Positions 4,985 through 54,697 of a DNA stretch of 64,000 nt are shown here, in pieces. Position 1 is the stretch's first letter; every line of letters starts with the position of its first letter. The DNA is from Flavobacterium yafengii (GTDB lineage: Bacteria; Bacteroidota; Bacteroidia; Flavobacteriales; Flavobacteriaceae). The notes under the pieces are model-generated. The model did not search any database, was not told where the DNA came from, and saw only the letters and a program-made list of their open reading frames with translations. Location of the stretch: positions 62,001 through 126,000 of the forward strand of contig NZ_JASCRY010000002.1 in the NCBI RefSeq assembly GCF_030010375.1, given 5' to 3'. Position numbers and translations under genes: made by a program.

Positions 4985-6331
4985 TTATATTCCTAAGAAA
5001 TTACTTGGAGTGATTTGCATCAACTCTGCTTTAATTTCATCCGAAACTTCTAAAGTTGCTATAAAACCGTGAATTGCTTTTTTATCAATCGCTTCATTAG
5101 TTCTTGTTAAGCCTTTCAAAGCTTCATACGGGTTAGGATATGCTTCACGACGTAAAATAGTTTGAATCGCTTCAGCAACGACTGCCCAGTTTTTCTCTAA
5201 ATCTTCATGGAATTTTGGTTCGTTCAATAACAATTTGTTCAATCCTTTCAAAGTAGCTTCAAAAGCGATTAGCGTGTGTCCAATTGGTACACCAATATTT
5301 CTCAAAACCGTACTATCCGTTAAATCACGTTGTAATCTTGATAACGGTAATTTAGCTGATAAATGTTCGAAAATAGCATTGGCAATTCCTAAATTTCCTT
5401 CTGAATTTTCAAAATCAATTGGGTTCACTTTGTGTGGCATTGCCGAAGAACCTATTTCTCCCGCTTTGATTTTTTGTTTGAAATATTCCATTGAAACATA
5501 CGTCCAAATATCTCGGTCTAAATCGATGATAATCGTATTTATTCTTTTCAAAGCATCAAAAAATGCAGCGAAATGATCGTAATGTTCAATTTGCGTAGTA
5601 GGAAAGGAGTGGTGTAAACCAAGGTTTTCCTCCACAAATTTCCCGCCGAATTTTCTCCAGTCAATTTGAGGATACGCCACGTGATGCGCATTGTAATTTC
5701 CTGTTGCTCCGCCAAATTTAGCTGCAAAAGGAACATTAAACAACAAACGCATTTGCTCTTCTAAACGCTCTACAAAAACACCAATTTCCTTACCCAAACG
5801 CGTTGGAGAAGCCGGCTGTCCATGCGTACGGGCAAGCATTGGAATATCCTTCCATTCGATGCTTAAATCTTTCAATTTTGAAGTTAAAGTAATCAAAGAA
5901 GGCATGTATACTTTCTCGAAAGCTTCTTTTGTAGATAGCGGAATCGCCGTATTATTAATATCTTGAGAAGTCAATCCAAAGTGGATAAACTCTTTATATT
6001 CTGATAATCCTAGTTTTTCAAAAGCATCTTTGATGAAGTATTCCACCGCTTTTACATCGTGGTTGGTTACTTTCTCTGTTTCTTTGATCCAAAGGGCATC
6101 TTCAGTAGAGAAGTTTTTATAAATGTTGCGTAAGCTTTCGAATAAATCTGGGTTTACGTTTTTTAGTTGTGGCAAAGGCACTTCGCACAAAGCAATGAAA
6201 TATTCAATTTCAACCAATACGCGGTATTTGATTAAGGCTTCTTCAGAGAAAAATGGAGCCAGTGAAATAGTCTTGTTTCTATATCTTCCGTCGATTGGCG
6301 ATATAGCATTCAATTCGTTTAAAGTAGTCAT
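4985..6331 (-). CDS. purB: Adenylosuccinate lyase
   Basis: 448-residue cytosolic enzyme of de novo purine synthesis. It removes fumarate from SAICAR and from adenylosuccinate. The fumarase/aspartase superfamily signature SSAMPHKVNPIDFEN is present near residue 290, with the catalytic Ser in its mobile loop, and TSQDINNTAIP carries the substrate-binding region. N-terminus LNAISPIDGRYRNKT is typical of the short PurB type of Gammaproteobacteria and Bacteroidota, and the length fits. Monocistronic with a strong terminator; the start at 6331 is the only ATG before the conserved ISPIDGRY. Confidence 0.96.
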   Translation of the reverse strand: MTTLNELNAISPIDGRYRNKTISLAPFFSEEALIKYRVLVEIEYFIALCEVPLPQLKNVNPDLFESLRNIYKNFSTEDALWIKETEKVTNHDVKAVEYFIKDAFEKLGLSEYKEFIHFGLTSQDINNTAIPLSTKEAFEKVYMPSLITLTSKLKDLSIEWKDIPMLARTHGQPASPTRLGKEIGVFVERLEEQMRLLFNVPFAAKFGGATGNYNAHHVAYPQIDWRKFGGKFVEENLGLHHSFPTTQIEHYDHFAAFFDALKRINTIIIDLDRDIWTYVSMEYFKQKIKAGEIGSSAMPHKVNPIDFENSEGNLGIANAIFEHLSAKLPLSRLQRDLTDSTVLRNIGVPIGHTLIAFEATLKGLNKLLLNEPKFHEDLEKNWAVVAEAIQTILRREAYPNPYEALKGLTRTNEAIDKKAIHGFIATLEVSDEIKAELMQITPSNFLGI

Positions 6332-7279: not shown

Positions 7280-7942
7280 ATGATTGACATTGATTATCTT
7301 AATTTTCTTGAAAATATCTTAACGGATAACCGCAAAGAAAAATTTCTGAAAGTATTGGAAAACAGAACCAAGCATTTTACGATTGCTGTTGAGGATATTT
7401 TCCAGATGCACAATACGAGCGCGGTGATGCGCAGTTGTGAGATTTTTGGAATTCAGGAATTGAATGTTATCGAGCAGCGTTACGGAAAAAGTATCGATAA
7501 GGAAATTGCCATGGGCGCTCAAAAATGGGTTGATATCAATACATTCGACAGTATTACGAATTGTGTGGATACGTTAAAAAATAAGGGGTATCAAATCATT
7601 GCCACTACGCCACATGAGAATGATTGCTTGATGGATGATTTTGATATTTCGAAACCAAGCGCTTTATTTTTTGGAACAGAAAGAGACGGATTGTCTGAAG
7701 AAATTTTACAACGTGCCGATGGTTTTCTTAAAATCCCGATGGTAGGTTTTACCGAAAGTTTGAATATCTCGGTTTCGGCGGCAATCATCATTCAAAACCT
7801 GACCAATCGATTGCGCAATTCAAACATTGATTGGCATTTATCTGAAAATGAAATTTTAGAAAAGCGTTTGGCTTGGGCCAAAAATTCCATAAAAGATATT
7901 AAGAGAATAGAAGAACGGTATTTTTCTGAAAACGTGAAATAG
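7280..7942 (+). CDS. trmH: tRNA (guanosine-2'-O-)-methyltransferase, SPOUT class
   Basis: 220-residue SpoU/TrmH-family enzyme that methylates the 2'-OH of G18 in tRNA with S-adenosylmethionine. All three SPOUT motifs are visible: HNTSAVMRSCEIFG with catalytic Arg at ~43-56, LFFGTERDGLSEEIL at ~132, and IPMVGFTESLNISVSAAI at ~153-170, which forms the trefoil knot. The last 45 codons (from ~7805) occur a second time at 8906-9034, after the HAD gene; see that entry. The C-terminal tail SENEILEKRLAWAKNSIK is thus probably not the ancestral one in this strain, though the gene itself is intact. Confidence 0.92.
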   Translation: MIDIDYLNFLENILTDNRKEKFLKVLENRTKHFTIAVEDIFQMHNTSAVMRSCEIFGIQELNVIEQRYGKSIDKEIAMGAQKWVDINTFDSITNCVDTLKNKGYQIIATTPHENDCLMDDFDISKPSALFFGTERDGLSEEILQRADGFLKIPMVGFTESLNISVSAAIIIQNLTNRLRNSNIDWHLSENEILEKRLAWAKNSIKDIKRIEERYFSENVK

Positions 7943-8067
7943 TTCTTTCATATAATGGTACGCTAATGTTTTTTATTTTAAAAAATATCATGTAACTTGT
8001 ACTATTTTCACGAAACAAGATACTTTGTCGTATATTTTATTTAACGCATGATTTAAAAAGAAAAACA

Positions 8068-8889
8068 ATGAAAGAATTTAAAAATAGCAACCAAGGTTTA
8101 GTAAATACCACATTGACTGTTGGAGAAGAAGAAATTAGCGCGCCTATTTTAATTTTAAAAGAGGAGACAGACAATAATGAGGAGTACAGCGCTGGTTATT
8201 TACAAAGACCCAAGGTTTTATTTTTTGATGTAAATGAAACGTTGCTGGATCTTAATAGCATGAAAAAAAGTATTGGCGCAGCGCTAGGAGGTCATCCTGA
8301 ATTGATGTCCTTGTGGTTCACTACAATGCTTCAGTATTCATTGGTTACAACAGTAGCAAATCAATATCATGATTTTGGAACAATTGGAGCCGCTGCACTT
8401 ATAATGGTTGCCCACAAAAATGGAATTGATATAACGGATAAACAAGCTAAAGATGCTGTTGCTCCAATTTTATCATTGCCTGCACATCCAGAAGTGAAAG
8501 AAGCTCTCTTACTTTTAAGAAGAGAAGGTTTTAAATTAGTTGCCTTCACTAACTCATCCAATAAAGCGGTAGAAACGCAACTTAAATATGCAGGGATTCA
8601 TGATCTATTTGACGATGTGTTAAGTATAGAAGATGTAAGTAAATTCAAGCCTCATGCAGATACTTATAATTGGGCTGCCAAAAAAATGGGATTAAAACCG
8701 AATGAATGTATGTTGATAGCTGCCCACGGTTGGGATGTTGCCGGTGCAAATTGGGCTGGTTGGCAAACGGCATTTGTTAGCCGTCCTGGACAGCAATTGT
8801 TTCCTCTTGCAAATTTACCTGAAATTAATAAAGAGAATATTTTATCAGTTGCTCAGAAGCTAATTTCAATACCGTTTCAGCAGTTGTAA
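8068..8889 (+). CDS. Haloacid dehalogenase, type II (HAD superfamily), with N-terminal extension
   Basis: 273-residue cytosolic hydrolase. HAD motif I is FFDVNETLLDL with nucleophile Asp54, motif II FTNSS (~165), motif III Lys in SKFKPHADTY (~190), and motif IV AAHGWDVAGANWAGW (~215). The last is diagnostic of L-2-haloacid dehalogenases, which hydrolyse 2-haloalkanoic acids to 2-hydroxy acids. About 46 residues precede the core; they are hydrophilic and unlike the usual family start, but no later in-frame ATG keeps motif I. The gene lies between two copies of the trmH 3' end, which implies it was acquired. The true substrate could be another small organic acid or phosphate. Confidence 0.85.
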   Translation: MKEFKNSNQGLVNTTLTVGEEEISAPILILKEETDNNEEYSAGYLQRPKVLFFDVNETLLDLNSMKKSIGAALGGHPELMSLWFTTMLQYSLVTTVANQYHDFGTIGAAALIMVAHKNGIDITDKQAKDAVAPILSLPAHPEVKEALLLLRREGFKLVAFTNSSNKAVETQLKYAGIHDLFDDVLSIEDVSKFKPHADTYNWAAKKMGLKPNECMLIAAHGWDVAGANWAGWQTAFVSRPGQQLFPLANLPEINKENILSVAQKLISIPFQQL

Positions 8890-8905
8890 TCATTGAAAAT
8901 TAAAG

Positions 8906-9034
8906 AACCGATTGTGTAATTTAAACATTGATTGGCATTTATCCAAAAATGAAATCTTAGAAAAGCGTTTGGCTTGGGCCAAAAAATCCATTAAACGAAT
9001 TGAAGAACGGTATTTTGAGGAAAACCCAAGGTAG
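8906..9034 (+). pseudogene. trmH: Orphan second copy of the trmH 3' end
   Basis: 43 codons in one open frame, starting NRLCNLNIDWHLSKNEILEK and ending in TAG at 9034. They match the last 45 codons of trmH (7280-7942) closely, apart from substitutions and a missing three-codon block (DIK). There is no start or catalytic domain, so it cannot encode a working enzyme. It is best explained as the original trmH end, displaced when the dehalogenase segment entered. Confidence 0.9.
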
Positions 9035-9305
9035 TGTAAACGAACGCTTAAATTAGATTTTAACGGTTTGCTGAGTCATTGCGAGGAACGAAGCAATCAC
9101 ACCTAGTATTTTCTTTTGATAAGTGCTTATCATTGTGGTCACGGACTGCAAATACGCGCAATCGGGTTGATGAAAGTCAGCCACTTTATTACGTTTTAAT
9201 ATACTATCAAGTTCTAAAAATTGCGCAAAGTCAGAGACATTTGCGCAGCTTTTACGAAAAATTCATGTGTTTTCAGAGACCCTTTGCAGAGCGGACTTCT
9301 CCCCA
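9035..9305. other. Intergenic stretch with dispersed-repeat fragments
   Basis: No convincing gene. At 9075-9098 there is TCATTGCGAGGAACGAAGC followed by AATC, which resembles a repeat half widely seen between bacterial genes. TGCGCAAA (9222-9229) and TTTGCGCA (9240-9247) form a small hairpin. Open frames here start inside the repeat and have no family features. Confidence 0.5.
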
Positions 9306-11567
9306 TTAGTCAAATAGTGTTGTTTGTCCTTCACGCTTTAACCTCCATTCGTCTTGTCCAATATGTTCAGCAATATCTTCTAGTACATTTAAAATTGTTT
9401 GACTTTCCGGAGTTGTTCCATTTTTTAAAAGAGGTAAAATTGCTAAAACCATTTCGTCAAAATGTGAGGATTTATTTTCTCTTTCCATTCTTCGTAAATA
9501 GCTAATTAAGTAGTATTTAATTCGAAGTCTTACGTCAAGGTGCGTTTGAAATTTAGTATTCTTTTTTATAGTGAATTGCTCTGTTGTTTCATTATAGTCA
9601 AAGTTCTCAAGCAAAATAGGAGTAAGGTCTGAATATTCCTTTTTAAGTAAGTCAAGAAAACCCAGTTCCAAACCTTTAATGATTAACTCGTCATTGATTT
9701 GCTCTAAAGTTCCTCCGTTGTTCTTTGCAATGACACCCTCAATAGTTTGCATTACAATTTCAGCAATGTCCATTCCTAAATTAGCCTTCATTATTGATCT
9801 TGGATTACGAATCTTACGGAAATTGATAATCAATTGTCCTGATAAAACAGTGAAAGGATTTTGTCTTTTCTTAAAACTTGTTTGTCCATTTTTTTGAGGA
9901 ACTGCACCAACATATTCAAAACCACAATTTTCTGCAGTATCAATTATTAAATGCCAAAATTCAGGGTCTTTATGAGCAAAAACAAATGAAAGCCAACGGT
10001 CAAATTTTAAAACACGATACATTTCTTTTATACTTTGTACTATTAACTCATTGTACTCATTTTTACTCTTATTGTGTTCACCACCTTCAATAGCTTCTTC
10101 TTTAAAGTCTTGTTCGGTTACTTCCAAGTCAAGCCAAGCGTTCCACATTGCTGATAAATCGAGGTAAGGGATTTTCTTCCCATAAGGTGGGTCTGTGTAA
10201 ATGTAATCAATACTTTCTTTTGGAATAAATTTCAAGTTGGTTGCTGTGCCTTTGATAATCTGTGCGTTGGAAATGGTGTTTTCATTAATGAAATACTCCA
10301 TTTCTTTTTTTGCTTCTCTTACTTTTTTGAACCGAAGTTCAAAGTAATACATAACATCTACATCAACATGACTTGGAGCAATTCTATACCGATAATAACG
10401 AAAAGCAGAACAGTCTCCTTGTCCTGCTTTCGGTTTATTGGGGGTGGTATGATAAGTCAAATTGACTTTTGTAACAAGCCCTGAAAACATAAGCAATAAT
10501 GAATTGCGTATATTTTCATTTGTCTGTTTTTTTATAGTTGATTTTAGCAAACCTAATTGTGCCGTTTGTTTATCGCTAAATAATTGGTCAACCGTTTCAA
10601 CATCTGAACCTTTAGGTAATGAAATCGGTTTTGGCCCAGGATATTTTTTTAAGGCTTTTTTGATTTCTGCTTCTGTAGTTGGTTCTTTCTTTTTATATTC
10701 TTCTATTACTTCTTCAAAGGCTCGTGCTAAGTCAGTTTGATTGACGGGTGCAATAAGAGCTTGAACAATAAAAACAGCCATTGGATTTAAGTCAATGTTT
10801 ACTGCACTTCTACTATTCATCAATGCTTCTATTGCAGTAACACCACTACCTCCAAAAGGGTCAAGTACCAAGTCTCCTGGTTTACTGAAATTTTTTATGT
10901 AGTCAGCAACTACATTCCAAGTTTGTTTTGTAAAGTAACCGTGAACACCAAAGTGTCGCTTAGCGGATTGCTTTTTCACAGGGATTTCTTCAAGTAACGG
11001 TCTTGTGTTGTAGTCAAAATCCCCTTTAGGTTTTGCGGTTGCCGTAGTTGCACCATAGGTAAAGTTTTTACCAATTTGAAAACTGGACGGGGATAGAAAT
11101 AATTTTAAATCTTCCCAATGCCTTTCAATATTTTCGATTTCAAAAAACAAAACTGGTTTGTCTGTGTCTGAAGTCCTGTAAATTGAAAACTCCAAGCCGT
11201 TGCAAAGTGTAAAATAATTACTTCTAATTTCGGGATGTGTTGCATAGCTATAAACCTGCTCTACATTATCGTCATTGATAATTTTTTGATTTGGTGCTTT
11301 TGCGTCTAGTACCCAAGCAAAATTATTCTCAACTTTCAATGTGTAGTCTGGAATAAGATTTATTGGCCTTTTTTTGCTCCCAATTTTCAAAAATGGGTGT
11401 TGCAAAGTTTTACTACGAACAATATTTTCTTGCGTGTAACCAAGTTCTTTTAAAATAGGAAGAATAATTACCTCTCTAACACTATCTTCTTTAAAGTCTG
11501 GGTCAGTTGCTATTGTCTTAAAATCAAGTTGTCCAAATAATTTCTCTCTTGTTATTTTATCGTTCAT
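9306..11567 (-). CDS. Fused restriction-modification protein: HsdR_N nuclease plus N6/N4 DNA methyltransferase
   Basis: 753 residues. Residues 1-165 match the HsdR_N-type PD-(D/E)XK nuclease: PDY with Asp74 and LDAK with Asp88 and Lys90, followed by the motif area around NVEQVYSYA. From ~205 an amino-methyltransferase follows, with motif I DPFGGSG (236-242) and catalytic DPPY (459-462). The ~200 residues between hold a target-recognition or helical region rich in YYRYRI/YYFELRF. Having cleavage and methylation in one chain suggests a type IIG-like solitary restriction-modification enzyme, but it could be a regulatory methylase. No separate HsdS or HsdM is near. It lies next to the disrupted trmH end, an accessory setting. 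Confidence 0.82.
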   Translation of the reverse strand: MNDKITREKLFGQLDFKTIATDPDFKEDSVREVIILPILKELGYTQENIVRSKTLQHPFLKIGSKKRPINLIPDYTLKVENNFAWVLDAKAPNQKIINDDNVEQVYSYATHPEIRSNYFTLCNGLEFSIYRTSDTDKPVLFFEIENIERHWEDLKLFLSPSSFQIGKNFTYGATTATAKPKGDFDYNTRPLLEEIPVKKQSAKRHFGVHGYFTKQTWNVVADYIKNFSKPGDLVLDPFGGSGVTAIEALMNSRSAVNIDLNPMAVFIVQALIAPVNQTDLARAFEEVIEEYKKKEPTTEAEIKKALKKYPGPKPISLPKGSDVETVDQLFSDKQTAQLGLLKSTIKKQTNENIRNSLLLMFSGLVTKVNLTYHTTPNKPKAGQGDCSAFRYYRYRIAPSHVDVDVMYYFELRFKKVREAKKEMEYFINENTISNAQIIKGTATNLKFIPKESIDYIYTDPPYGKKIPYLDLSAMWNAWLDLEVTEQDFKEEAIEGGEHNKSKNEYNELIVQSIKEMYRVLKFDRWLSFVFAHKDPEFWHLIIDTAENCGFEYVGAVPQKNGQTSFKKRQNPFTVLSGQLIINFRKIRNPRSIMKANLGMDIAEIVMQTIEGVIAKNNGGTLEQINDELIIKGLELGFLDLLKKEYSDLTPILLENFDYNETTEQFTIKKNTKFQTHLDVRLRIKYYLISYLRRMERENKSSHFDEMVLAILPLLKNGTTPESQTILNVLEDIAEHIGQDEWRLKREGQTTLFD

Positions 11568-11989: not shown

Positions 11990-14900
11990 TTAGTTAACGA
12001 TAACCCATTGTCCTGAAGCGATTAAGCTTTCGGCTTTTTTGTATTTCATTTCTTGTATTTGTCCGTTGGCCACGTTTTGAATCGTTACGTTATCATTACG
12101 ATTGATTTTTGGCATATCTCTCACGATAGTTTCGGTAACTTGTCGTTGTTGCGTTTCCCCCGCTTCACGATTAGCACTTTCACTATTTGGAATTTCGTCT
12201 TTACTTAATTTATAGTCTTCTTGTTGACGAACTTCTTTCGCTTCTTGAATTTGTTGATTCTCTTGAGCCGGCAAGTCCCCTTTGAACAAGAATGAAATCA
12301 CTTCCTTGTTTACATTGTCAATCATTGCTCTAAACAAATTGAACGCTTCCAGTTTGTAAATAAGTAATGGATCTTTTTGTTCGTGAACCGCAAGTTGAAC
12401 CGATTGTTTCAACTCATCCATTTTACGTAAGTGTTTCTTCCAAGCTTCATCTACAATAGATAAAGTGATGTTTTTTTCGAAATCAGCAACAAGTTGAGCT
12501 CCCTCAGTTTCGTAGGCTTTTTTTAAATCAGTAACTACATTCAACGATTTGATTCCGTCTGTAAAAGGAACTACAATACGCTCAAATTGGTTGTTTTTAT
12601 CTTCGTAAACACTTTTTATGATTGGGAATGCTTCTCTGGCACTTCTTTCGGTTTTCTCCGTATAATATTCCAGCGTAGCTTTGTATATTTTACCGGTTAA
12701 TTCCATTTCACTCAATTTACTGAATTCACTTTCAGTAACTGGTGAAGTAATAGAGAAATAACGAATCAATTCGAATTCAAAGTTTTTGAAATTATTTGTT
12801 GCTTTGTTTTCATCAACAATCAATTCACAAGTATCATAAAGCATGTTCGCAATATCCAATTTCAATCGCTCTCCAAACAATGCATGACGACGACGTTTGT
12901 ATACTACTTCACGTTGTGCGTTCATTACATCATCATATTCCAATAAACGTTTACGAACACCAAAGTTGTTTTCTTCTACTTTTTTCTGAGCACGTTCGAT
13001 AGATTTAGTCATCATAGAATGCTGAATCACTTCACCTTCCTGCAATCCCATTCTGTCCATCACTTTAGCCACTCTTTCAGAACCAAACAAACGCATTAGG
13101 TTGTCTTCAAGAGAAACATAAAACTGGGAACTTCCAGGATCACCTTGACGTCCTGCACGACCACGTAACTGACGGTCAACACGACGGGAATCATGACGTT
13201 CTGTTCCTACAATTGCTAATCCACCAGCGGCTTTTACTTCGGCAGATAATTTAATATCGGTACCACGACCAGCCATATTCGTTGCAATAGTTACCACACC
13301 AGGTTTCCCTGCTTCTTCAACAATTTGCGCTTCTTGTTTGTGCATTTTTGCATTCAAGACATTGTGTGCAACGCCTCTCATTTTCAACATTCGGCTTAAT
13401 AATTCTGAAATCTCTACAGAAGTTGTACCAATAAGAACCGGTCTTCCTGCTTTAGATAATTCAGTTACGTCTTCGATAACGGCATTGAATTTTTCACGAG
13501 TAGTTTTATAAATAAAATCCTCTTTGTCTTTTCTGGCCATTCCTCTGTTCGTAGGAATTTCTACAACGTCTAATTTATATATTTGCCATAACTCACCTGC
13601 TTCAGTCGAGGCTGTTCCAGTCATTCCTCCCAGTTTGTTGTACATTCTGAAATAATTCTGTAACGTAACGGTTGCAAATGTTTGTGTAGCGGCTTCGATT
13701 TTTACATTTTCTTTGGCTTCAATTGCTTGGTGCAATCCGTCAGAATAACGACGACCGTCCATAATACGACCGGTTTGCTCATCAACAATCATGATTTTGT
13801 TATCCATGATTACATATTCTACATCTTTTTCGAATAAAGCGTAGGCTTTCAAGAGTTGTGTCAACGTGTGAATACGCTCACTTTTTATACCAAAATCTTG
13901 AAACAATTGTTCTTTTTCTTCGGCTTCAGTGTCTTTATCTAATTTTTTCTTTTCGATAGCGGCAATTTCAGTTCCAATGTCCGGAAGTACAAAAAAGTCA
14001 GAGTCCGTATCTCCAGAAAGGTATTTAATTCCGTTGTCTGTCAATTCAACCTGATTGTTTTTTTCTTCAATAACAAAATACAATGCCTCATCAATCTTGT
14101 GCATTTCTCTTTTGTTATCCTGCATGTATTGATTCTCCGTTTTTTGAAGCAATTGTTTGATTCCTTCTTCACTCAAAAATTTAATTAATGCCTTGTTTTT
14201 TGGTAATGCTCTGTAAGCTCTTAATAATTGGAATCCACCTTCTTTGGTATTTCCTTCTTTTATTAATTTTTTTGCTTCAGATAAGAAACCGTTTGCCAAC
14301 TGGCGTTGTAAACTAACTAAGTTTTCAATTTTTGGTTTCATTTCCATGAATTCATGACGATCTCCTTGCGGAACCGGACCTGAAATAATCAATGGTGTTC
14401 TGGCATCATCAATTAAAACAGAATCGACCTCATCGACAATAGCGTAATTGTGTTTTCTTTGCACTAAATCTTCTGGCGAATGTGCCATGTTATCTCTCAA
14501 ATAGTCAAAACCAAATTCATTATTAGTTCCGTAAGTGATATCAGCATCGTACGCTTTTTTTCTTCCTTCAGAACTTGGTTGGTAATTGTCAATACATTCT
14601 ACAGTCATACCGTGAAATTCGAATAATGGCGCTTTCCAAGTACTATCTCTTTTTGCCAAATAATCATTCACAGTTACTAAATGCGCACCATTTCCTGTCA
14701 ATGCATTTAAGTAAAGCGGTAAAGTTGCCACCAATGTTTTTCCTTCACCTGTTTGCATTTCAGCTACTTTTCCTTCATGCAAAACCATTCCGCCAATTAA
14801 TTGTACGTCATAGTGAATCATGTCCCAAGTAATTTCTTTTCCTGCAGCACTCCATGAATTTGCCCAAATTGCATTGTCACCATCTAAGGTAATGTAGCTT

Positions 14901-15331
14901 TTAATAGCCGAAAGTTCACGGTCTTTTGCAGTTGCAGTTACCACTATTTGGGTGTTGTCTTTAAAACGTCTTGCTGTTTCTTTAACAACGGCAAAGGCTT
15001 CCGGAAGAATTTCCATTAAGGTTTTCTCAGAGATATCGTAAGCTTCTTTTTCAAGTGCATCAATAGCAACATAAATATCTTCTCTTTTGTCAATGTCTTC
15101 AATGCTTTCTACTTCCAGTTTCAGCGCAGTAATTTTTGCGTCTTTTTCTGAACGAGCTTCTTTTATTTTGTCCTTAAAAAAGTTTGTTCGACCTCTAAGT
15201 TCATCATGGGATAATGCCATTAGTGGTTCCTCAAAAGTTTTTATTTTGTTGAGATAAGGTTGTAAAGCTTTGACATCTTTTTGTGACTTATCGCCAACAA
15301 AGACTTTAATAATACTGTTTATGAAACTCAT
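11990..15331 (-). CDS. secA: Preprotein translocase ATPase SecA
   Basis: 1113-residue motor that drives secretory proteins through SecYEG at the inner membrane. Walker A MQTGEGKTL lies at 192-200, DEVD Walker B box at 300-303, the SecA signature VTNDYLA-like VNDYLAKRD at ~221, and the helicase II region GTDIKLS/RQLRGRAGRQGD in the middle third. Walker A is ~90 residues later than in Escherichia coli because of an insertion at ~55-165 usual for Bacteroidota. The C-terminus (EMKYKKAESLIASGQWVIVN) has no CXCXSGX8CH zinc motif, so SecB binding through it is not expected. Upstream is the DUF2795 gene, partly insulated by a hairpin. Confidence 0.97.
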   Translation of the reverse strand: MSFINSIIKVFVGDKSQKDVKALQPYLNKIKTFEEPLMALSHDELRGRTNFFKDKIKEARSEKDAKITALKLEVESIEDIDKREDIYVAIDALEKEAYDISEKTLMEILPEAFAVVKETARRFKDNTQIVVTATAKDRELSAIKSYITLDGDNAIWANSWSAAGKEITWDMIHYDVQLIGGMVLHEGKVAEMQTGEGKTLVATLPLYLNALTGNGAHLVTVNDYLAKRDSTWKAPLFEFHGMTVECIDNYQPSSEGRKKAYDADITYGTNNEFGFDYLRDNMAHSPEDLVQRKHNYAIVDEVDSVLIDDARTPLIISGPVPQGDRHEFMEMKPKIENLVSLQRQLANGFLSEAKKLIKEGNTKEGGFQLLRAYRALPKNKALIKFLSEEGIKQLLQKTENQYMQDNKREMHKIDEALYFVIEEKNNQVELTDNGIKYLSGDTDSDFFVLPDIGTEIAAIEKKKLDKDTEAEEKEQLFQDFGIKSERIHTLTQLLKAYALFEKDVEYVIMDNKIMIVDEQTGRIMDGRRYSDGLHQAIEAKENVKIEAATQTFATVTLQNYFRMYNKLGGMTGTASTEAGELWQIYKLDVVEIPTNRGMARKDKEDFIYKTTREKFNAVIEDVTELSKAGRPVLIGTTSVEISELLSRMLKMRGVAHNVLNAKMHKQEAQIVEEAGKPGVVTIATNMAGRGTDIKLSAEVKAAGGLAIVGTERHDSRRVDRQLRGRAGRQGDPGSSQFYVSLEDNLMRLFGSERVAKVMDRMGLQEGEVIQHSMMTKSIERAQKKVEENNFGVRKRLLEYDDVMNAQREVVYKRRRHALFGERLKLDIANMLYDTCELIVDENKATNNFKNFEFELIRYFSITSPVTESEFSKLSEMELTGKIYKATLEYYTEKTERSAREAFPIIKSVYEDKNNQFERIVVPFTDGIKSLNVVTDLKKAYETEGAQLVADFEKNITLSIVDEAWKKHLRKMDELKQSVQLAVHEQKDPLLIYKLEAFNLFRAMIDNVNKEVISFLFKGDLPAQENQQIQEAKEVRQQEDYKLSKDEIPNSESANREAGETQQRQVTETIVRDMPKINRNDNVTIQNVANGQIQEMKYKKAESLIASGQWVIVN

Positions 15332-20154: not shown

Positions 20155-21705
20155 ATGATGATTGAACAAATAGAACATAAAAGGGCCATAAGCTCAGAAG
20201 AAATTGACCGATGCATCGCTATTTTGGCACAATTAAATACCGATACCGACCAAATATTTGATATCCCGAAAGAACAACGAACAGCCTTAATCAAAGCGGC
20301 AGGAATGTTTTCCAGACCCGATCGTGACGAGCTTTCCCGAAGAAAAAAAGACGGAAAAGTGGCTGCTAAGCGCAAAATGGAAAAACGGGACCGAACCGCC
20401 CGAAAGGAAACCGGGATACGGCATGCGCGTGAAGCGAGTATTTTTGTGGCACCAAAATTATTGGCTTCACATGATCTCGCTCACAAAGAGCAATTAGAAC
20501 TGGAAACTCCACGAAATTGTTACGTTTGTAAAACGGAATTTACTAAAATGCACCACTTTTATGATACGATGTGTACCGATTGTGGTGATTTTAATTATGC
20601 CAAACGTTTTCAAACTGCTGACGTAAACGGACAAGTTGCCGTTATTACAGGTTCTCGTCTAAAAATTGGGTATCACATTACGTTGATGTTGTTGCGTGGT
20701 GGAGCAACCGTTATTGCAACGACTCGTTTTCCGGTGGATTCCGCTTTGCGTTTCTCTAAGGAAGCTGATTTTATGGATTGGGGACATCGTTTGAAAATTC
20801 ATGGGTTGGATTTACGACACATTCCGAGTGTGGAGATTTTTTGCAACTTTATTGAGCAAAAATACGAGCGATTGGATATTCTAATCAATAATGCAGCGCA
20901 AACCGTGAGACGTCCTGCCGGATTCTATACGCATTTAATGGAAAACGAAGAGCGTTCTATCGCTTCTTTGCCCAAACAAGCGCAAGAATTATTATTGGAT
21001 CATACCAATTGTTTGGATGAATTAAAAGTATTGACATCTGGAGCTTCTCCAAATCAAAATATGCCGGTGACTTGGCACGGACCAGAGCCTGGGATTGGGT
21101 TGCGGGCTTCCGCCAAATTATCCCAGATTCCGTATTCGTTTGATAATGCGCTCGTGGCAAACGAAGTTTTTCCGGAAGGAGAACTCGATGCCGATTTGCA
21201 ACAAGTCGATTTGAGAAAAACCAACAGCTGGCGTTTGCGATTGGGACAAATAGAAACCACGGAGATGATAGAAGTGCAGTTAGTGAATTCCGTAGCACCT
21301 TTTGTATTGTGTAACCGCCTTTCGGAAGTGATGAAGAAAGACAACACTGGAAAAAAACATATCATCAATGTGTCGGCAATGGAAGGAAAGTTTCATCGTT
21401 TTTTCAAGGAAGACCGCCATCCGCATACCAATATGGCCAAAGCCGCTTTGAATATGCTGACGCACACTTCTTCGGGAACTTTGGCAAAAGACGGCATTTT
21501 TATGAATGCGGTCGACACCGGTTGGGTAACCGACGAAGATCCGGCAGAATTAGCCAAAAGAAAACAGGAAGAAGAGGATTTTCAGCCGCCATTAGACATT
21601 GTGGATGGAGCAGCGCGAGTTATGGATCCGTTGTTTGACGGTATCAATACGGGAAAACATTGGTGTGGAAAGTTTTTGAAAGATTACAATCCGATTCCTT
21701 GGTAG
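20155..21705 (+). CDS. Zinc-ribbon short-chain dehydrogenase without the usual catalytic Tyr
   Basis: 516 residues, twice the length of a classical SDR. Residues 1-115 are a basic helical region. Four Cys at 122, 125, 140 and 143 (CYVC and CTDC) form a zinc-ribbon-like knuckle. The Rossmann SDR follows: TGSRLKIG (165-172), ILINNAAQT (~242) and [10 protein letters not shown] with the Ser. Where YXXXK is expected the sequence is TNMAK, so Lys is kept and Tyr is Thr. A ~90-residue insertion lies between NNAAQT and the active site. NAD(P)-linked chemistry is likely, but the substrate is unknown. The gene 3' end is duplicated at 22299. ATG at 20155 or 20158. Confidence 0.82.
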
Positions 21706-21767
21706 AACCTTCAGATTTATAAAATAAAAAACCACAACAAAATCTAATTCTGTTGTGGTTTTTTATT
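21682..21767 (+). repeat. SDR gene 3' end plus terminator, copy 1 of a duplicated block
   Basis: From the last eight codons of the SDR gene through its terminator. Nearly the same sequence returns at 22299-22385: TTCCTTGGT, GAACCTTCAGATTTATA and ACCACAACA are shared in order. The two copies bracket the small membrane protein gene. Confidence 0.85.
21726..21764 (+). terminator. Intrinsic terminator of the SDR gene
   Basis: Perfect 14-bp arms AAAAAACCACAACA (21726-21739) and TGTTGTGGTTTTTT (21751-21764). May also serve the convergent membrane protein gene. Confidence 0.92.
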
Positions 21768-21814
21768 GTTTCGCTTTGTGTACAGTTTACAAATCCGCAA
21801 TCACGGTTTACTGT

Positions 21815-22105
21815 TTACGATCCGGCGAACGGTGTCCCGAAAAGGCCAACTGCAAGTTCTATCCAAATAAGGAGAAGCACTACCAGAATAATTGTACAGA
21901 GAATGATTCGATGATTGGTTTTTTTTACCTTTCTCATTACAAGCTCACAGATAAGACCTGTACCGAGTAATAGAACGCCAGCGACTACAAAATCGGACCG
22001 ATTCCAGTTTACTTCATTTGTGAATTGCATTGCTATTAATGGGATGAACAGTAAAAAAACTACTGTGAGGACAATGCCAATGAGTCTTTTGTTTTCCATA
22101 ATCAT
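21815..22105 (-). CDS. Small membrane protein, three predicted helices
   Basis: 96 residues: helices at ~8-27 (IGIVLTVVFLLFIPLIAM), ~40-57 (VVAGVLLLGTGLICELVM) and ~66-87 (IILCTIILVVLLLIWIELAVG), with a basic loop RKVKKTNHR between the last two. It ends GLFGTPFAGS. Inner-membrane location expected, function unknown. It is the only gene between the two copies of the SDR 3' end and runs opposite to the SDR gene, so it looks acquired. Confidence 0.75.
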   Translation of the reverse strand: MIMENKRLIGIVLTVVFLLFIPLIAMQFTNEVNWNRSDFVVAGVLLLGTGLICELVMRKVKKTNHRIILCTIILVVLLLIWIELAVGLFGTPFAGS

Positions 22106-22298: not shown

Positions 22299-22385
22299 GA
22301 TTGTAATCCTATTCCTTGGTGGAACCTTCAGATTTATAGAACAAAAAACCACAACAGAATTCGATTTCGGTTGTGGTTTTTTTGT
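22299..22385 (+). repeat. Second copy of the SDR gene 3' end and terminator
   Basis: Repeats 21682-21767 with scattered substitutions, including a working hairpin ACCACAACAGAA / TTTCGGTTGTGGT and T-run. No coding domain remains. This is the same architecture as the trmH remnant at 8906-9034. Confidence 0.85.
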
Positions 22386-22484
22386 TTTTTTGGATTTGTG
22401 TCTTTAATATTGTTGACAAAAAATCATTGCTATAAAAACGTCTATATACCTAAACAATTGAAGCGTTTTGTGAAATTTTAAAAT

Positions 22485-53351: not shown

Positions 53352-54401
53352 ATGAAAAAAAACCTAGCTATTCTAGCATTAATGCTAACAACAAGTTTAA
53401 CTTTTGCGCAAGACGCTCCAGTTGCTCCTTCAACTACTTTTGCAGGATCTGCTGATGCATATTATAAATATGATTTTTCTGGTGTAGACAACAGTTTGAC
53501 CAGTTTTACAAATTCTCATAATTCATTTGAATTAGGGATGGCCTCTATCGAAGCATCTCATAAAATGGGTAAAGCATCTGTTTTTGTTGATTTAGGGTTT
53601 GGAAACAGAGCTGCTCAATTTACTTATAATGATGCCGCTTCAACTTTTATGATTAAACAATTAAATTTCACTTACGAGTTTTCGGATAAATTTAAAGTCA
53701 CTGCAGGTAGTTTTGGAACCCATGTGGGATATGAATTATTAGACGCAGTAGATAATAAAAACTACAGTATGTCTTACGCATTTACGTACGGTCCCTTCTT
53801 TAATACTGGAGTAAAAGCACAATATACTTCTGGAAAATTCAGTTTCATGGCTGGAGTTACAAATCCAACAGATTTTAAAACAACAATCGAAGCGGGTTCA
53901 ACCCAAAAAACTTTCATAGGTCAACTAGGTTATGTTGGTGACACTGGAAGCGCATATTTTAATGTTACTTCAGGAAGTAGTAATCCTTCTTCTGATGAGA
54001 ACAAAACACAATTTGATTTTGTAGGTTCGAAAAAAGTGAGTGATACATTCTCTTTAGGATTTAACGGTACGTATGCAATGACAAACAATGACTTTGATAG
54101 TTCATTGGATGGTGAATGGTTTGCTTTAGTAGGATATGCAAATTTTGCATTGAAAGAGACGTTAAGTTTAGCTTACAGATTAGAGTATTTAGATGCTAAA
54201 GATGCTACTGCCGGACTTGGTTCGCTTGCTGGAACTAGTGTTGTTGGTAATACTTTATCACTAAATTATAAAGTAGGAAACTTGACTATTATACCTGAAT
54301 TCCGTGTTGACACAGCTTCTGAAGATATCTTCACAAATAGTGATGCCGCTCCAAAAGGTTTAACCGCTTACGCATTACTTGCAACAACTTACTCGTTCTA
54401 G
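53352..54401 (+). CDS. Outer-membrane beta-barrel porin
   Basis: 349 residues. Signal peptide MKKNLAILALMLTTSLTFAQ; the mature protein is a run of amphipathic beta strands ending in aromatic ATTYSF, the usual C-terminal F for BAM assembly. FAGSADAYYKYDFSG and FEVTAGSFGTHVGYELLD-like SFGTHVGYELLDAVDNKNYSMSYAFTYGPFFNTG are typical of Bacteroidota porins (BBP2-like/OmpL family). Probably a diffusion channel, perhaps for anions or small substrates. The last ~50 bp and terminator are duplicated downstream. Confidence 0.82.
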   Translation: MKKNLAILALMLTTSLTFAQDAPVAPSTTFAGSADAYYKYDFSGVDNSLTSFTNSHNSFELGMASIEASHKMGKASVFVDLGFGNRAAQFTYNDAASTFMIKQLNFTYEFSDKFKVTAGSFGTHVGYELLDAVDNKNYSMSYAFTYGPFFNTGVKAQYTSGKFSFMAGVTNPTDFKTTIEAGSTQKTFIGQLGYVGDTGSAYFNVTSGSSNPSSDENKTQFDFVGSKKVSDTFSLGFNGTYAMTNNDFDSSLDGEWFALVGYANFALKETLSLAYRLEYLDAKDATAGLGSLAGTSVVGNTLSLNYKVGNLTIIPEFRVDTASEDIFTNSDAAPKGLTAYALLATTYSF

Positions 54402-54654
54402 TATTGAGATAATATTTTTTTTTTGCTGCCAAGATGCTTTAAAGTATTTTGGCAGCTTTTTTTTGCTTCGATTTTGAGATGCTTTAGAAATCTATTTGAG
54501 ATGTAATGCTACACTTCAAAAGGGGAATGATTTAGGTATTGCTCGCAACAACTTATTAGTTCTAGTATTGAGATGCTATTTTTTTTCGCTGCCAAGATGC
54601 TCTAAAGTATTTTGATGGCCTTTTTGTTTAGATTTTGAGGTACTACAGGAGTCT
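54353..54654 (+). repeat. Tandem duplication of porin 3' end and terminator (~164-bp offset)
   Basis: The end of the gene (CTTGCAACAACTTACTCGTTC and TAGTATTGAGAT), its terminator (GCTGCCAAGATGCT, AAAGTATTTTG) and the flank GATTTTGAG recur 164 bp later at ~54517-54654 with substitutions; GTTCTAG lies at 54395 and again at 54559. The second copy has no barrel upstream and a decayed hairpin (TTGATGGC instead of TTGGCAGC). Confidence 0.85.
54425..54464 (+). terminator. Intrinsic terminator of the porin gene
   Basis: GCTGCCAA (54425-54432) pairs with TTGGCAGC (54449-54456), with an inner CTTT/AAAG, followed by eight T. Confidence 0.92.
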
Positions 54655-54697
54655 TTTCTGATAAACGACAAATAGAGTTTGATGTGGTTTTAAATAG

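Follow-up and report, generated by a model that had tools for sequence, protein, structure and literature searches.

A SpoU-family (TrmH-like) RNA methyltransferase gene of Flavobacterium yafengii, called trmH below, has very probably acquired a donor trmH 3' end, together with a spacer and a type II haloacid dehalogenase-like (HAD) gene, by recombination within trmH, and its native 3' end has been displaced downstream. The locus preserves an unusually full record of one capture: a hybrid gene with a short switch interval, a foreign end that accompanies the HAD gene, a displaced native end in decay, an empty site in a relative, a joint shared by three species, and loci that carry the unit without a remnant. 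The capture is clean and of a mechanistically familiar kind, and no integrase is in sight. It shows how a gene can come to lie behind a core gene that stays intact, with no recombinase visible, and the displaced end offers a testable footprint for many variable chromosome intervals that lack mobile elements.

Organization of the trmH-secA interval

The window, which is the whole stretch of 64,000 nucleotides analysed, comes from a genome of 3.92 Mb. The features of the locus are as follows.

7280..7942, + strand: SpoU-family (TrmH-like) RNA methyltransferase gene, 220 aa, complete; hybrid, body native and last codons foreign (PF00588, 3.9e-34)
7900..7926, + strand: probable switch interval from native-type to HAD-associated sequence in trmH (sites -46/-43 as in G337/G007; VK-specific from -17)
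7943..8067, + strand: spacer accompanying the VK end and the HAD gene, 125 nt (121/125 nt identical to F. urumqiense)
8068..8889, + strand: type II HAD dehalogenase-like hydrolase gene, 273 aa (TIGR01428, 168.1 bits)
8880..8905, + strand: right-hand joint of the HAD 3' end to trmH position about -155 (from alignments; identical joint in F. ranwuense and F. xueshanense)
8889..9034, + strand: native trmH 3' end in displaced position, now in decay (9-nt deletion; last 45 nt versus G337 trmH, 41/45)
9035..9300, strand not assigned: native flank, which adjoins trmH directly in the HAD-less genome G337 (225/251 aligned nt identical)
9306..11567, - strand: N6/N4-type DNA methylase, 753 aa (PF01555), more variable cargo of the trmH-secA interval
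11990..15331, - strand: presumed secA, the second core gene bordering the variable interval

The trmH product scored 118.2 bits against the SpoU family PF00588 (cut-off 29.7) and 123.8 bits against the TrmH equivalog NF008295, below its cut-off of 227, so that TrmH-like is the safer name. The names secA, purB, sir2, thrC and katG are presumptive and were given from the sequences. From 7942 to secA (11990) the domain-bearing genes were the HAD gene and the DNA methylase on the opposite strand. The methylase gave partial PADLOC matches to PglXI and to type II MTases and is a possible defence gene, with no partner identified. Two REP-like hairpin repeats (9068-9165 and 9163-9305) lie inside the flank; their cores have many further copies in this and other genomes, and longer copies sit in the trmH-secA interval of several species. 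secA was found in 39 of 67 rows, at a distance of 113 to 11,329 nt from trmH. A tRNA gene was also considered as an attachment site and was rejected, the tRNA genes of the window being three tRNA-Glu genes at 62 kb only.

The end of trmH recurs behind the HAD gene

According to the initial annotation, the end of trmH recurs after the HAD gene, and both a repeat search and blastn recovered this recurrence. The repeat search paired 7805-7894 with 8906-8995 (90%) and 7887-7933 with 8979-9025 (79%), and window-wide blastn joined both into one alignment of 7787-7933 with 8889-9025 (147 nt, 80%, E 1e-31). The second copy had been described as starting at 8906 and reaching its own stop codon. It does stay in the trmH frame until its own TAG at 9032-9034, ending in IDWHLSKNEILEKRLAWAKKSIKRIEERYFEENPR, but the repeat starts about 17 nt earlier than proposed, at the stop codon of the HAD gene (8887-8889). 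Opposite the DIK codons of trmH the second copy has a gap of 9 nt.

A second trmH tail was also found behind the HAD gene in F. ranwuense and F. xueshanense, so the repeat is not due to chance. When a profile of the tail was run against 66 trmH downstream regions, full copies were found in the window, F. ranwuense and F. xueshanense only (E 1e-31 to 4e-39). F. xueshanense gave the next two matches, both partial (E 0.005 and 0.15), and those after them had E 1 or worse; the best match to the reversed sequence, which served as control, also had E 1. A genus-wide hotspot of trmH tail displacement was rejected, since just 3 of the 66 downstream regions held full copies.

The remnants of F. ranwuense and F. 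xueshanense each contain an in-frame stop codon, and both retain the DIK block; the absence of this block at 8906-9034 is therefore a later deletion in the lineage of the window. With stop codons in two relatives and the 9-nt deletion in the window, the trmH remnant is in decay and looks non-functional.

An empty site in a HAD-less relative

If the downstream copy is the displaced native end, relatives without the HAD gene should have a trmH that ends like this copy and is joined directly to the region after 9034. Genome G337 has this arrangement. Its trmH ends in DIKRIEERYFEENPR (..RYFEENPR) and is followed by a window-like flank, in which 225 of 251 aligned nt are identical to window 9035-9300 and which has an extra 38-nt piece relative to that region. 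No HAD match was present within the 18 kb of G337 examined, and the spacer at 7943-8067 has no counterpart behind it. The last 45 nt of the G337 trmH agree with the second copy of the window at 41/45 positions and with the present window trmH end at 34/45.

Two tails would likewise result if the trmH end had been duplicated locally in tandem and the HAD gene had then inserted between the copies. However, neither end is a copy of the other, as the 41/45 and 34/45 agreements indicate, and what follows trmH in G337 is the 9035-9300 sequence and not the 7943-8067 spacer. The empty site contradicts a tandem duplication, which we consider barely credible.

The further expectation that HAD-less strains would lack the DIK block failed. 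DIK lies within the last 45 residues in 59 of 60 trmH rows without the VK end, the sole exception (L201) reading DSK, and it was present in 28 of 30 further loci, the other two reading DIQ and DII. The trmH of G337 itself contains DIK.

G337 was the only close empty-site genome among the 398 searched. G239 gave a weaker match to the same arrangement, and in G305 trmH ends in EENPR with a flank unlike that of the window. In the tail and flank matches of G070, G113 and G036, the flank similarity was due to the hairpin repeat and not to the stretch adjoining the stop codon.

The foreign end of trmH and the switch point

The body of the window trmH was nearest to that of two HAD-less genomes, G305 (93.1%) and G337 (92.9%). 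The upstream trmH end, by contrast, had been proposed to be foreign and to accompany the HAD gene, and this was borne out, because the ENVK (VK) end was confined to HAD-bearing loci. It was found in 7 of 67 rows (6 genomes, with F. ranwuense counted twice), every one with a HAD gene behind, and in 4 of 30 loci of a second set (the window, F. ranwuense, F. sinopsychrotolerans and F. urumqiense). Six of 398 genomes of the genus carried the VK end together with the spacer; G071 matched over 53 nt only, and F. sinopsychrotolerans over 97 of 173 nt.

A foreign end of about 45 codons, as first suggested, was not upheld. The last 200 nt of trmH were compared in ten genomes (six VK ends and four native ends), and all sites that split the two groups lie within the last 17 nt. 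Judged from these alignments, the demonstrably foreign part of trmH is the last 17 nt or so only. Sites -46 and -43 of the window match those of G337 and G007 and differ from the other five VK sequences, and the native ends of G305 and F. xueshanense carry the VK-type base at these sites; sites -39 and -34 are private to the window. The simplest switch interval is 7900-7926, and the foreign part thus amounts to about 6 to 14 codons. Since F. ranwuense differs from the window at -43/-46, the switch mapped in the window may postdate the founding exchange.

The HAD gene and its spacer

The HAD protein scored 168.1 bits against TIGR01428, above the cut-off of 125.4 of this curated type II haloacid dehalogenase family, and contains the motifs FDVNETL, TNSSN, KFKPH and AAHGWD. 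Such motifs are catalytic, and the protein is a putative dehalogenase. The reading frame is open in all seven species compared.

The window HAD gene lacks the TetR neighbour and the Tat-like N-terminus of the F. sinopsychrotolerans locus. The HAD proteins of F. sinopsychrotolerans, F. petrolei and F. psychrolimnae have an N-terminus with SRRNF, which we take to be a Tat signal motif; the group of the window has no such N-terminus. The dN/dS of the HAD gene was 0.15-0.34 in the window's group versus 0.07-0.10 in the F. sinopsychrotolerans group, and the higher values fit a constraint that relaxed once the Tat-like N-terminus had been lost. The spacer (7943-8067) showed partial likeness to the trmH-TetR spacer of F. 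sinopsychrotolerans.

Eight Winogradskyella loci (L105, L112, L123, L128, L131, L140, L157 and L160) also have a HAD gene, 54-65% identical, near trmH and sir2; it lies within a few kb of these genes in a different orientation.

The same unit in other species

F. ranwuense carries trmH with the VK end, the HAD gene and the second trmH tail. F. xueshanense has the HAD gene and the second tail, and its trmH has a native-type end (EETPR) with the same kind of flank behind it and 4.7 kb of other DNA between trmH and the HAD gene. The ENVK end and the shared spacer near the HAD gene are present there as remnants only. Two short VK-type trmH remnants (L083:4670-4708 and 5837-5875, 1167 nt apart) start at about -39. 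Each of them lies directly behind a REP-like repeat, in an apparently duplicated unit, and they point to a second capture ahead of the earlier one. Behind the trmH remnant, L083:7285-7968 encodes a kinase of polyvalent-protein type (PF18762), which hints that the trmH-secA interval of this species holds cargo from a mobile element.

In F. urumqiense, trmH with the VK end and the HAD gene are followed by a katG-like gene, and a second tail was not detected; the unit can therefore occur without the remnant. In F. sinopsychrotolerans, F. petrolei and F. psychrolimnae, trmH has the VK end and a HAD gene 68-69% identical to that of the window lies 740 nt further on; the intervening gene, read in F. 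sinopsychrotolerans (L085), encodes a TetR regulator. No second tail was detected at these three loci.

Divergence, trees and the direction of transfer

Silent-site divergence of the HAD gene among the window, F. ranwuense, F. urumqiense and F. xueshanense was 0.21-0.30, versus 0.33-0.94 for a marker gene located 52 kb away in the window. Between F. sinopsychrotolerans and F. petrolei or F. psychrolimnae it was 0.17, and 0.61-0.66 for the marker. Between F. petrolei and F. psychrolimnae the values were 0.18 for the HAD gene and 0.26 for the marker, and this likeness could reflect plain descent. The window and F. urumqiense share 121/125 nt of the spacer and have a HAD dS of 0.26, with a marker dS of 0.88 and 88% identity in secA; their trmH body, purB and secA are 88-93% identical. 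Because species resemble each other more in the HAD gene and spacer than in their core genes, the unit has moved between species, and by these divergences it is younger between them than the core genes are. The history of this cargo is incongruent with that of trmH, secA and the marker, as would be expected of a recombination hotspot without mobile elements.

In the joined tree of the left flank (purB, sir2 and trmH body) the window grouped with G337 (91/95), and among 15 other genomes G337 had the closest secA (96.7%), followed by G305 (96.1%) and the VK/HAD carrier F. sinopsychrotolerans (95.6%). The joined left flank and secA of the window are thus nearest to the empty-site genome, by small margins. 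For purB alone F. ranwuense was closest (94.0%), then F. sinopsychrotolerans (93.6%), with G337, G305 and F. petrolei at 93.2%. The marker tree, built without G337, paired the window with HAD-carrying F. ranwuense (100/95), and the secA tree was built without F. ranwuense and F. xueshanense. The trees are weak, which counts against the main model.

The direction could also be the reverse, an ancestral trmH(VK)-HAD locus having received a native-type end and flank from a donor with the EENPR end, joined behind the HAD gene and anchored through homology on the secA side. VK-HAD loci without a detected remnant in F. urumqiense, F. sinopsychrotolerans, F. petrolei and F. psychrolimnae would agree with this. 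In F. xueshanense a native-type end and flank precede the VK remnants, so such transfers do occur, and the secA of F. sinopsychrotolerans is among the closest to that of the window. Since purB, the marker tree and sites -43/-46 do not speak clearly for G337, this alternative gains slightly and capture of the HAD unit loses slightly. However, HAD-less G337 has the joined left flank and the secA nearest to those of the window, and between species the HAD gene and spacer are of more recent date than the core genes. We judge the reverse direction unlikely, and follow the capture of a donor end with its HAD gene below.

A model for the capture

DNA from another Flavobacterium, consisting of its own trmH 3' end, the spacer and the HAD gene, would have entered a lineage whose trmH ended in ..EENPR. 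Homologous recombination inside trmH would have given the resident gene the ..ENVK end and placed the spacer and HAD gene behind it. The other side would have closed without extended homology, the HAD 3' end being joined about 155 nt before the resident stop codon, and the native 3' end and its flank would have stayed downstream as a dead remnant.

Homologous exchange on the left side is shown by the sequence switch within trmH, and the right joint lacks extended homology. As this joint is identical in three species, one founding event followed by spread is probable. Our best overall reading is one-sided homologous recombination, perhaps by a single crossover of an end-joined circle. The arrangement is that of a Campbell-type integration, in which a segment of trmH flanks the insert with the incoming end on one side and the native end on the other. 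On balance, we lean slightly towards an end-joined circle with one crossover as the incoming molecule, as opposed to a linear fragment or a template switch. Experimental precedent in an E. coli lacZ-end assay makes this route plausible: PCR indicated a duplicated lacZ end in 56 of 60 Lac- clones, sequencing of 14 clones confirmed duplications of 109-950 bp, and these are ascribed in that account to a single crossover of a trimmed circle (PMC3240628).

Linear DNA could have produced the same insertion, with homology in trmH and an illegitimate joint or template switch on the right, as in homology-facilitated illegitimate recombination (HFIR). No circle would be required, and short similarities exist at the joint (TTTC.GC and TAATCATT), where HFIR would be expected to leave microhomology of 3-10 bp. 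HFIR is described for three competent species and rarely for E. coli (PMC3240628). However, in HFIR products the gain of DNA is generally offset by a loss of recipient DNA of about equal size, according to the same account (PMC3240628), and here the native end and flank have been kept, save for the 38-nt difference from G337 further along. Moreover, roughly 110-140 nt of trmH are duplicated, and the duplications of the E. coli assay were ascribed to circles (PMC3240628). The linear route is a possible but clearly secondary explanation.

The claimed absence of an integrase agreed with our scan: no recombinase domain was seen among the scanned ORFs between trmH and secA of the window, F. xueshanense, F. 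urumqiense and F. sinopsychrotolerans. The scan covered called ORFs and Pfam matches, including a part of the small ORFs, and in F. xueshanense the interval stops short at the end of its contig. Site-specific integration at the trmH 3' end by a lost or trans-acting integrase would give the same anatomy as prophage e14 at icd, which supplies a new icd end and displaces a native end of 163 bp (PMC6379469), and the PF18762 kinase behind the F. xueshanense remnant would suit it. Yet the interval genes examined in the four species include no recombinase, and the remnants start at different points, at -155 in the window and at about -39 in the two VK remnants of F. xueshanense. We hold such an integration to be very unlikely. 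For the preferred recombination within trmH, we infer the route of entry and that no recombinase ever took part.

Displaced ends at other genes

The 3' end and terminator (21682-21781) of an SDR gene (20155-21705) are repeated at 22299-22401, 594 nt downstream, with a small ORF of 96 aa (21815-22105, - strand) between the copies. Among 19 genomes compared, F. ranwuense has this displaced end too; one was also found in G070 at +1810 (59 nt, 90%) and in F. xueshanense at +841 (36 nt, or 99 nt at 80% in another comparison). Four other genomes had repeats of the terminator or of shorter non-coding pieces only, and in F. petrolei just 121 nt separate the SDR gene from the next core gene. For thrC, a decayed 3'-end remnant lies 3.2 kb downstream (L260:18243-18691; C10 at about 404.2-404.7 kb), with a 43-nt remnant (86%) in F. 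petrolei (L329) and an apparent empty site in G029 (L334). The end and terminator of gene 53352-54401 (54368-54496) are duplicated at 54532-54657, 131 nt apart and without cargo, possibly by simple tandem duplication, and a gene that we take to be NAD(P)HX dehydratase-like has a candidate displaced end of 22 matching nt. These last two are weak cases. At L071:9599-10222 an exact 120-nt repeat of a gene start lies about 750 nt upstream of it and may be a displaced 5' end, the mirror image of the trmH case.

A survey of C10:62001-526000 gave 10 matches from 337 3' ends and none from 335 5' ends. Five of the 10 were kept (trmH, the SDR gene, gene 53352-54401, the dehydratase-like gene and thrC), and five were set aside, without individual inspection, as family repeats with a coding overlap of at least 225 nt. 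A second stretch of the same genome gave one match each from 332 3' and 332 5' ends, and G010 gave three from 321 3' ends and two from 320 5' ends; three of these four 3' matches were paralogs on inspection, and for the fourth and the three 5' matches coverage was the sole ground for calling them paralogs. In 131 loci, 3 of 1469 3' ends were labelled displaced, two of them the known trmH cases, and 4 of 1322 5' ends. A general rule that 3' ends are displaced more than 5' ends was dropped, as the wider survey did not bear out such an excess.

Displaced ends might, tentatively, be a recurring and readable scar of recombinase-free capture at core-gene borders in this Flavobacterium group. At trmH, the SDR gene and thrC, incoming DNA would then have re-ended the gene and stranded its old end, a suggestion we offer with reserve. 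It is equally speculative that capture repeats at one locus, as at trmH in F. xueshanense and as the differing SDR distances (window/F. ranwuense, F. xueshanense and G070) might indicate. If true, a single genome could reveal in which direction and order captures took place and where the crossovers lay.

Comparison with known systems

By title and abstract opening, the partial collection of literature consulted held no report of the trmH site or of 3'-end displacement at Flavobacterium housekeeping genes. Variable hotspots without mobility genes, with recombination in the flanking core genes, are known in general (PMC5635113). The trmH-secA interval resembles them in being variable, in showing no mobility genes in the four species scanned, and in a transfer anchored in a core gene. 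However, the model outlined for such hotspots is double recombination in both flanks, whereas at trmH one side is homologous, the other is not, and a displaced end is left.

Prophage e14 likewise brings a replacement 3' end and leaves the 163-bp native end of icd displaced beyond it, but e14 integrates site-specifically and can excise, of which there is no sign at trmH (PMC6379469). Orphan rhs-CT modules are displaced 3' fragments downstream of a main gene as well, usually without start signals; their ends encode different toxins, whereas at trmH a single housekeeping gene accounts for both ends, of which the displaced one looks dead (PMC3967940). HFIR shares with trmH the homology at one end and the non-homologous joint at the other, but it normally deletes recipient DNA, and the trmH locus duplicates it.

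In the lacZ-end assay, as at trmH, a gene end is duplicated around an insert (109-950 bp there, about 150 nt here), with a trimmed homology arm and no site-specific recombinase (PMC3240628). That assay used a selected, conjugating laboratory plasmid (PMC3240628), whereas the trmH case concerns a chromosomal gene passed between species, with a proposed mechanism.
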